Assembly: GCA_002841275.1 (NCBI GenBank)
Contig: PHET01000001.1
Coordinates: 96,464-160,463, forward strand
Origin: Actinobacteria bacterium HGW-Actinobacteria-7
GTDB lineage: Bacteria > Actinomycetota > Coriobacteriia > Anaerosomatales > PHET01
Direction of reading: 5' to 3'
Length of the DNA stretch: 64,000 nucleotides
Below are positions 30,951-34,394 of the stretch, one piece after another. The notes under the pieces are model-generated. The model was not told the origin of the DNA and searched no databases. It worked only from the letters and a program-made list of their open reading frames with translations. A program made the translations under genes and the position numbers. Numbering within the stretch: position 1 is the stretch's first letter; each line of letters starts with the position of its first letter.

Positions 30951-31805
30951 CTACTCGGACTTGGCGGCGTCTTCTGCCACGGCAGCGATCGCCGCAGCGG
31001 GACTCTCCGTCTCGACGCATTCTTCAGCGACCGGTACAGCCTCGACAGCAGTCTCGACGACCGGCGCAGCGGCGTCGACAACCGGGGCAACGGTCTCAGA
31101 AGCGAGAACGTCGGGAACCTGTGCTCCGCCGCCTCCGTCGATAATCGCATCGGCGATCACGCGGCACATGAGACCAACCGAACGAATCGCGTCGTCGTTG
31201 GCGGGAATGAGATAGTCGACCTCATCCGGATCCGCGTTGGTGTCCACCAGACCGATGATGGGAATGTGCAGACGGCGGGCTTCCTTGATCGCGATGTCCT
31301 CGCGCTTCGTGTCAATGACGAACAGAGCAGCCGGCACTTCACGCATCTCACGAATACCATTGAGGTTAGACTGCAGCTTCGTGAGTTCCTTGTGCAGAAG
31401 GATCTGCTCCTTCTTGGGAAGCGACGCCATACGTCCGTCGGTGTCCATCGCTTCGAGCTCCTCCATGCGCTGAATACGTGAGCGCATGGTCACGAAGTTG
31501 GTGAGCATCCCGCCGAGCCAGCGGTTGGTGACATACGGCATACCCGCGCGTCCGGCCTCGGTGATTATGGGCTCCTGCGCCTGCTTCTTGGTGCCGACGA
31601 ACAGGATCTTCTGGCCACGCTGGCCGATGGAACGAGCGAACTTGTAGGAATGCTCCAACTCGCGAAGCGTGCGCTGCAGGTCGAGGATGTAGATGCCGTT
31701 GCGTTCCGTGAAGATGTACGGCTTCATCTTCGGGTTCCAGCGCCTGGTCTGGTGACCAAAGTGGACGCCCGCCTCGAGCAGGCTTTTCATGGTAACGATG
31801 GGCAT
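30951..31805 (-). CDS. rpsB: Small ribosomal subunit protein S2
   Basis: This 284-residue S2 binds the 30S head/body junction and recruits S1 in some bacteria. The conserved N-terminal region [19 protein letters not shown] and the [11 protein letters not shown] segment are clear. The last 50 residues form an Ala/Val/Glu-rich acidic tail beyond the core, as in other actinobacterial S2 proteins. It is preceded by a promoter candidate and a leader hairpin. Confidence 0.97.
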
Positions 31806-31919: not shown

Positions 31920-31928
31920 AGTATAGCA
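31920..31928 (-). promoter_or_regulatory. Extended -10 promoter for rpsB-tsf
   Basis: Minus-strand TGC-TATACT, a near-perfect extended -10. The -35 region (CTGGCA, 17-base spacer) falls inside the hairpin of the preceding terminator, so terminator and promoter share sequence. Confidence 0.5.
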
Positions 31929-31954
31929 AAAGCCCCGCTGAATGCCAGCGGGGC
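31928..31954 (-). terminator. Strong intrinsic terminator after the response regulator gene
   Basis: Minus-strand GCCCCGCTG, loop of five, CAGCGGGGC followed by TTTT: a perfect 9-bp GC-rich stem with a U run, 29 bases beyond the response regulator stop. Confidence 0.85.
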
Positions 31955-31982: not shown

Positions 31983-32600
31983 TCAGAACTCACGCGAGCA
32001 GCGCGGGCATGTCACGTGGGCGTCATACCAACGATGGTCGCCGGCTTTCGCTACCAATTCCAGTACGAGTTCGACCTCGCATGCCGGGCACCACAGTCGT
32101 CTCGGGAGATCGGCCGCCGCCACGAAACGATCGGCATCCGCCTCATGGTCCCTCAACAAGACCTGATAGGTGTTGGCGCTGAATTCCGTCTTGGGCACGT
32201 CCGCCTGCGGCTCGGGACGAGAGCGCTCTATCTTGGCCAGGATCTTTGAAATCCTATTGGCCACGTCATTGGGCCTGGCTTCGTTCTTGATCAGATAGTC
32301 CACCGCGCCCATCTCGATACCACGCTTTACGTCGGCTTCTTGTCCTAGATTAGACAGGATGAGAACAGGAACGTCCCTTAGCCGAGGATCCCGCTTCACC
32401 AAGTCGAGCACCTCAAGTCCGCTCATCTTGGGCATGATGAGATCCAGCAGTATCAGATCCGGCGTGTCCGACCGCATCAGCGTCAGCGCCTCAGCGCCGT
32501 CCGCCGCGTTGAGGACGCGGTACCCGTCGTGCTCAAGACGATCCGAATACATCTGTCGCAGCATCTGAGTGTCTTCGACAACGAGTATGGTCTTGCCCAT
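31983..32600 (-). CDS. Response regulator: CheY-like receiver with C-terminal zinc ribbon
   Basis: This 205-residue protein starts with a receiver domain (1 to about 120): acidic pair Glu9-Asp10, phosphoacceptor Asp53 in LLLDLIMPKMSG, the LILSN Ser and the conserved Lys in YLIKNEA. After a short linker the C-terminus has CPAC (171-174) and CPRC (198-201), a four-cysteine zinc ribbon. There is no DNA-binding HTH. The output is therefore likely protein- or nucleic-acid binding through the ribbon. No histidine kinase is nearby. It follows the sigma factor gene by 79 bases and ends at a strong terminator, so the two are probably co-transcribed. Confidence 0.85.
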   Translation of the reverse strand: MGKTILVVEDTQMLRQMYSDRLEHDGYRVLNAADGAEALTLMRSDTPDLILLDLIMPKMSGLEVLDLVKRDPRLRDVPVLILSNLGQEADVKRGIEMGAVDYLIKNEARPNDVANRISKILAKIERSRPEPQADVPKTEFSANTYQVLLRDHEADADRFVAAADLPRRLWCPACEVELVLELVAKAGDHRWYDAHVTCPRCSREF

Positions 32601-33488: not shown

Positions 33489-34394
33489 TCAGGCGCGCGG
33501 ATGTGCGGTACGGTGCACGTCTCTGAGTCTCTTCATGCTTAGGTGAGTATAAATCTGGGTGGTAGACAGGGCAACATGGCCCAAAAGCTCCTGAACCGTA
33601 CGCAGATCGGCACCCGCTTCCAGCAAGTGGGTCGCAAATGTGTGACGCATCGCGTGAGGGGTTAATGCCGTTGCGGCACCCGCAACACCGATGTAGCGCT
33701 TGAAGATGCGACGGACCGCGTCTTCAGACAGCCGGTTGCCGCGTGTGGAGAGGAAGACACTCCCCGGTGAATCGGCGCGTGCCAAGTGAGATCGGCCGTC
33801 ACGCAGGTAGTCGCGGAGCCGTGACTGGGCCACCGCGTGCAGCGGCACGATGCGTTCCTTGGATCCCTTCCCCAGCACGGTCATCTGCCCCTGAGCCAAG
33901 TCGAGCGCATCAAGGGTGAGTCCGCTGAGCTCGCCGACGCGCACGCCGCTCGCGTAGAGCAGTTCAAGCACTGCGGCATCGCGAAGTCCGACCGGCGTAT
34001 CACGCACTGGGGCGTCCAGAATCGCTTCGAGTTCGTCTGTCGGGAAGATCCGCGGGAGCCGCGCCGGTATCTTGGGTGCGAGCAGGACCGAAGCCGGATC
34101 CGAGGTGGCGAGACCCTCAGATACAAGGTAGGCGAAGAGCGACCTCACCGCAGACAGACGCCGCGATATGGTTCTCTTCGCGTAGCGCGCACGGTCGAGC
34201 TCCGCAAGATACAGACGCATCTGGCGATGAGTAAGGGTCATCGGATCCAGCGATGCGCGCTCCGCCCACTCGAGGTAGCGCTGCAGATCCGTCGCATACG
34301 CGCGCACGGTGTTCGGGGAGGCGCCCCGCTCCACAGAAAGGTGAACCAGGAATCGATCCACCAGCTCCGAAGCAGTGACCGGAGGGTCACCCAT
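33489..34394 (-). CDS. xerC: Tyrosine recombinase XerC
   Basis: This 301-residue site-specific recombinase would act with a second Xer protein at dif to resolve chromosome dimers, activated by FtsK (also in this window). The N-terminal SAM-like domain (about 1-95) is followed by the catalytic domain with Arg in SGVRVGEL, HAMRHTFATHLL (His-x-x-Arg), and the nucleophilic Tyr in STTQIYTH. The ATG overlaps the trmFO stop by 8 bases. The position matches Bacillus codV and actinobacterial xerC next to dprA. XerC rather than XerD is inferred from synteny. Confidence 0.93.
   Translation of the reverse strand: MGDPPVTASELVDRFLVHLSVERGASPNTVRAYATDLQRYLEWAERASLDPMTLTHRQMRLYLAELDRARYAKRTISRRLSAVRSLFAYLVSEGLATSDPASVLLAPKIPARLPRIFPTDELEAILDAPVRDTPVGLRDAAVLELLYASGVRVGELSGLTLDALDLAQGQMTVLGKGSKERIVPLHAVAQSRLRDYLRDGRSHLARADSPGSVFLSTRGNRLSEDAVRRIFKRYIGVAGAATALTPHAMRHTFATHLLEAGADLRTVQELLGHVALSTTQIYTHLSMKRLRDVHRTAHPRA

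Follow-up and report, generated by a model that had tools for sequence, protein, structure and literature searches.

An orphan response regulator with a zinc-ribbon output domain, encoded behind whiG, as a candidate control of a WhiG/FlgM-like type IV pilus circuit in a flagellum-less order

What might a phosphorylation switch ending in four cysteines be doing directly behind the gene of a FliA/WhiG-family sigma factor in bacteria without flagella? The question is raised by a window of 64,000 nt (the whole stretch of DNA that was analysed) from an actinobacterial genome, which carries such a gene on its minus strand (Table 1). Its relatives were compared across 61 genomes from its order, which is most likely Anaerosomatales (OPB41) of the class Coriobacteriia. 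The regulator emerges as a good candidate for the missing control of a sigma factor circuit which probably serves type IV pili, and a mechanism for this control is proposed.

A response regulator with an undescribed output domain

The N-terminal part of the protein was recognized in the initial annotation as a complete receiver, on account of Asp53 and the lysine of a YLIKN motif, and this was upheld. A Pfam search matched it to Response_reg (PF00072) with an E value of 3e-25, and the residues E9, D10, D53 and K105 (the lysine of YLIKN) are invariant in an alignment of 30 orthologs. The AF2 model of the whole regulator has a mean pLDDT of 84 and a pTM of 0.64, with pLDDT values of 92–98 across most of the receiver and a poorly ordered linker at approximately aa 131–152. 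Structure comparison found known receiver structures which match the domain with a TM of about 0.93 of target, while at the sequence level it is similar to RssB receivers among many others. Possessing the receiver fold, the acidic pair, the phospho-acceptor aspartate and the conserved lysine, the protein is a two-component response regulator, and its phosphorylation would be expected at D53. The receiver is its only Pfam match above cut-off, with no PhyR-type sigma-like domain being present.

The segment 31998–32090, which had drawn attention to the gene, was found to consist of precisely the codons of CPAC-x23-CPRC. The four cysteines and the spacing of 23 residues are intact in all of the intact orthologs read, which indicates that the pattern is not a product of chance; homologs without the cysteines, which would have spoken against one regulatory unit with the sigma gene, were not found among these orthologs. 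The C-terminal domain is conserved over 25 aligned rows, and ortholog alignments show near-invariant flanks of the ribbon (R-R-[FL]-W-CPACE and GW[YF][DE]AH). With moderate confidence, AF2 predicts a helix at aa 154–162 and strands at aa 179–185 and 188–197, the latter forming a beta hairpin between the CxxC knuckles. As modelled, with two CxxC knuckles around a beta hairpin, the domain is a zinc ribbon, and it would be expected to bind zinc.

No Pfam or NCBIfam family was matched above cut-off by the C-terminal domain, and its best PDB sequence match is weak (6zxw_H, E 0.00045). A comparable known output is TackOD1, a mainly archaeal, cysteine-rich receiver output described from type IV pilus loci, in which 11 cysteines are conserved over about 200 aa (PMC5847659). 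The domain of the regulator is likewise a cysteine-rich and probably zinc-binding output on a receiver. However, it has four cysteines in about 65 aa, TackOD1 (PF18551) is absent among the Pfam matches listed for the regulator, and membership of that family was rejected. A profile search of 300 genomes from other orders of the class yielded no credible relative of the domain, the sole match being at chance level and running across a stop codon. Among 397 genomes sampled across the phylum one isolated relative was found, in G579, and 99 relatives of that genome contained no further ones. This near-confinement to one order (300 and 397 genomes) rules out a general Actinomycetota domain. Judged by sequence, the ribbon is an undescribed response-regulator output domain. 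The G579 homolog (L301:1501-2091) has 43% identity and adjoins an AMP-ligase gene rather than whiG; it is possibly the result of horizontal transfer or contamination.

It had been suggested that the ribbon might bind nucleic acid. Binding to DNA or RNA is unlikely, as the domain is acidic with a mean net charge of -2.8.

Table 1. Features of the regulator locus (window coordinates) and the FlgM-like gene of the same genome
Feature	Position	Strand	Basis
205-aa orphan response regulator (receiver plus predicted zinc-ribbon output)	31983..32600	-	ORF, Pfam Response_reg, orthologs
Regulator start ATG; stop codon	32600; 31983-31985	-	ORF
CheY-like receiver domain, aa 1-127 (E9, D10, D53, S83, K105)	32220..32600	-	Pfam, AF2, invariant catalytic residues
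C-terminal output domain, about aa 141-205 (65 aa), short helix then predicted zinc ribbon	31986..32180	-	25 aligned rows, AF2
Four-cysteine ribbon CPAC-x23-CPRC, aa 171-201	31998..32090	-	Sequence, ortholog conservation
whiG, FliA/WhiG-family sigma factor, 258 aa	32680..33456	-	NCBIfam PRK06288 WhiG equivalog
xerC, fixed upstream neighbour	33489..34394	-	Synteny
rpsB, fixed downstream neighbour, then tsf, pyrH	30951..31805	-	Synteny in relatives
Rho-independent terminator 3' of regulator, GCCCCGCTG-GCATT-CAGCGGGGC-TTTT	31926..31954	-	Fold
Gene of the FlgM-like candidate anti-sigma factor (MIISDEQ...), 5' of pilB	G000 contig C16:25626-25877 (L280:3627-3881)

Linkage to whiG and probable loss within the order

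The assignment of the preceding gene to a FliA/WhiG sigma factor in the initial annotation was borne out by the NCBIfam WhiG equivalog NF004935 (372.7 bits vs. a cut-off of 343). The stop codon of whiG and the start of the regulator are separated by 79 nt, the genes xerC, whiG and regulator are all co-directional, and co-transcription of the regulator with whiG is likely. Orthologs of the regulator (E ≤ 1e-25) were detected in 44 of the 61 genomes, mostly at 50–60% identity, and whiG in 60. Co-occurrence with the sigma gene, by which the proposed pairing was to be judged, proved strict in one direction: whiG lies immediately upstream in 44/44 genomes having the regulator, which is found nowhere else in the order, and wherever the contigs extend far enough the genes run xerC-whiG-regulator-rpsB-tsf. 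The suggestion that sigma factor and regulator form one regulatory unit withstood both checks proposed for it. The dependence is one-way: 16 genomes keep whiG and are missing the regulator (rpsB then usually following straight after whiG). The strong terminator reported after the gene exists, as a hairpin with a T tract (-27.1 kcal/mol, z -3.61; it was not reported by a plain terminator scan), but is not a general trait. Of 41 relatives having the regulator, no more than 11 show a comparable terminator, and a conserved terminator as the mark of a bicistronic unit was rejected on this count.

The presence pattern of the regulator needs six changes on a tree built from WhiG, RpsB, XerC and Tsf, with at least four of these on well supported branches. 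Such a count does not on its own distinguish gains from losses; loss is favoured by the fixed slot and by a possible degraded remnant of the regulator in G010. On this basis the order probably saw four to six losses of the regulator while whiG stayed, and the regulator is dispensable. One ortholog (G015; L122, about 2160–2741) is frameshifted upstream of the ribbon, through either assembly error or decay. In G003 (L135) an ORF of 502 aa, probably encoding a cell-surface repeat protein, is situated between whiG and rpsB, where the regulator would sit.

WhiG-type promoters, type IV pili and a FlgM-like protein

Flagellin was found in none of the 61 genomes of the order, with four control genomes being positive, and flagella were on this ground rejected as the target of WhiG. 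A search of the 61 genomes for the promoter pattern TAAA-N14-16-GCCGATAA gave 26 exact matches, compared with 1 for the reversed pattern, and seven of the 26 are located directly upstream of a type IV pilin gene situated behind pilC. The genome of the window (G000) has a perfect WhiG-type promoter between pilC and the pilin gene (contig C14:64001-64027; L168:1501-1527), the only perfect N15 match in that genome. By position, 47 of 49 genomes were found to have a WhiG-type promoter (TAAAG-N13-15-GCCGATAN) ahead of the pilin gene, the match in these pilC-pilA gaps having at most 3 mismatches in 13 and lying 43–77 nt from the pilA start codon. This promoter occurs in genomes with and without the regulator, and persists without it where pilC is kept. 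Weight was given to the exact and positional searches only; a one-mismatch search of the window's genome returned background (2 matches vs. 4 for the reversed control). These promoter positions suggest that WhiG in this flagellum-less order probably drives type IV pili and not flagella. Exact matches were also observed at L172 and L180, preceding a large membrane or sensor protein, and at L179, preceding a CheB-like methylesterase (sequence-based calls).

Behind one of the exact matches lies a gene of the FlgM family. When an alignment of six such proteins was used as a profile, this FlgM-like gene was found in 53 of the 61 genomes, and the protein of the window's genome (C16:25626) matches the order's alignment with an E value of 6e-18. 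PF04316 is matched above cut-off in two genomes and at E < 0.001 in four more; the protein of the window's own genome has no match to Pfam FlgM by itself. The gene is positioned upstream of pilB wherever its neighbourhood was read, and the pilB of the window's genome carries an MshEN domain. The WhiG-type promoter ends 7–11 nt 5' of the FlgM-like start in nearly all cases, and 7 nt before the ATG in the window's genome, where the mRNA may be nearly leaderless. As pilA and the FlgM-like gene share WhiG-type promoters, it is plausible that sigma factor, candidate anti-sigma factor and pilin would form an autoregulated circuit.

Control of type IV pili by RsiG/WhiG has been described for Rubrobacter, where the promoters through which WhiG acts on the pilus genes are of the TAAA/GCCGATAA type seen here (PMC8325347). 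The c-di-GMP switch RsiG-WhiG of Streptomyces and Rubrobacter likewise acts on an actinobacterial WhiG-family sigma factor; the order studied here differs in having a FlgM-like protein as candidate anti-sigma factor and a receiver-ribbon protein in the whiG operon, and FlgM is unmentioned in the text of the RsiG/WhiG paper (PMC8325347). Cultured Anaerosomatales are non-motile and piliated, with one producing pili only with ferrihydrite (PMC9686372). Through the pilus circuit, the sensing of an electron acceptor could thus be linked in a testable way to the expression of pili on insoluble iron, and the circuit is a larger result than the regulator itself.

Possible roles of the regulator

In the classical case, inhibition by FlgM ends when FlgM is exported through the flagellum. 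With a FlgM-like protein and its sigma factor but no flagellum, the order needs another release step, for which the receiver-ribbon protein is a natural candidate. The best reading of the regulator is that of an accessory phospho-switch acting through protein-protein contact. We tentatively favour a role in which this order-specific switch, with the ribbon as its protein-interaction output, tunes the WhiG/FlgM-like circuit controlling type IV pili. In this scheme (i) an unlinked histidine kinase would phosphorylate the receiver at D53, (ii) the C4 zinc ribbon would serve protein interaction and not DNA binding, (iii) the regulator, co-transcribed with whiG, would tune the balance of WhiG (sigma) and FlgM-like protein (anti-sigma), and (iv) WhiG would transcribe, in hosts without a flagellum, both the gene of the type IV pilin and that of the anti-sigma factor. 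The most likely step of control would be binding of the phosphorylated regulator to the FlgM-like anti-sigma factor, or to its complex with WhiG, by which WhiG would be freed. Such release would stand in for flagellar FlgM export, which is impossible without a flagellum. We infer the contact with the anti-sigma factor, and its direction, from the place of the gene in the whiG operon, the protein-binding character of the regulator and the lack of a flagellum for FlgM exit, which together make it a candidate release switch. If this is true, the receiver-ribbon protein would be the missing control knob of the pilus sigma factor. The broader proposal, that a flagellar sigma/anti-sigma pair has been kept as a pilus circuit in which phosphorylation of a receiver-zinc-ribbon protein replaces FlgM export, as a new phospho-controlled class of anti-anti-sigma factor, is rather doubtful.

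Co-occurrence gave trends in keeping with a link to pili. Of the 44 genomes with the regulator 40 have kept pilC, vs. 9 of the 17 without it (Fisher p 0.002, kinship ignored), and the median FlgM-like score is 84 bits with the regulator vs. 34 without (p 0.0004, no tree correction). Neither association is significant after tree correction (4 independent pairs), so that a tracking of pilC or FlgM-like loss by regulator loss is a raw trend only. One clade (f4) has lost the regulator and retained a normal FlgM-like protein. This speaks against the favoured role, as do the dispensability of the regulator, the persistence of the pilA promoter without it and the missing Pfam FlgM match of the FlgM-like protein in the window's genome.

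The commoner occurrence of pilC in genomes with the regulator also suits a post-transcriptional role in pili, in which the regulator would bind the motor or assembly machinery in the manner of PilG/PilH or FrzS and lie in the whiG operon for co-expression only. A receiver of the CheY type that carries a small tail for protein binding would be apt for this purpose, no docking to WhiG is predicted, and type IV pilus loci also contain TackOD1, itself an archaeal cysteine-rich receiver output (PMC5847659). Yet the gene is always after whiG and never in a pilus cluster, and nine genomes with pilC have no regulator, making this role unlikely.

Alternatively, the direct partner of the regulator could be WhiG or the WhiG-RNA polymerase, on which it would act as a phospho-dependent anti-sigma factor, a proteolysis adaptor (as RssB for RpoS) or a co-activator, with the FlgM-like protein being separate. 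The strict operon linkage to the sigma gene alone and the resemblance of the receiver to RssB receivers (among many others) agree with this, and binding of the ribbon to RNA polymerase or a sigma factor had been raised in the initial annotation. However, when WhiG and the regulator of L017 were folded as a read-through chain (stop read as Gly; 10 paired and 38 unpaired rows) the pTM was 0.38 with no confident docking or interface, and WhiG is equally conserved where the regulator was lost (e.g., 81% identity in G032). Direct stable binding of WhiG is not supported by this model, although with a shallow and mostly unpaired alignment the missing docking is weak evidence; we consider direct binding unlikely. 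Least probable is that the regulator is unrelated to sigma activity and that gene order near ribosomal protein genes just changes slowly: the xerC-whiG-rpsB-tsf block is in any case conserved as a whole and stays intact when the regulator is lost, but the repeated clean absence from the same slot, without relocation in 44 genomes, and the parallel pilC and FlgM-like trends (though not significant on the tree) make this improbable.

The favoured reading, release of WhiG from its anti-sigma factor by the phosphorylated regulator, has its likeness in PhyR-NepR-EcfG, in which a phosphorylated receiver protein frees a sigma factor from its anti-sigma factor. PhyR carries a sigma-like decoy domain. 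Here too a phosphorylated receiver would free the sigma factor, but no sigma-like domain was found. The Pseudomonas aeruginosa response regulator HsbR acts on FlgM via HsbA (PMC5085249) and shares with the proposed scheme the control of a FliA-family sigma factor by a response regulator through the anti-sigma factor FlgM; it differs in having a kinase/phosphatase output and needing HsbA, where the regulator described here has a zinc ribbon. AsfR of Actinoplanes is also an orphan phosphorylatable receiver, and its actinobacterial host likewise has pili and sigma factors of the FliA/WhiG type, but it is a stand-alone receiver without a ribbon, and its gene does not adjoin a sigma gene (PMC11960193).
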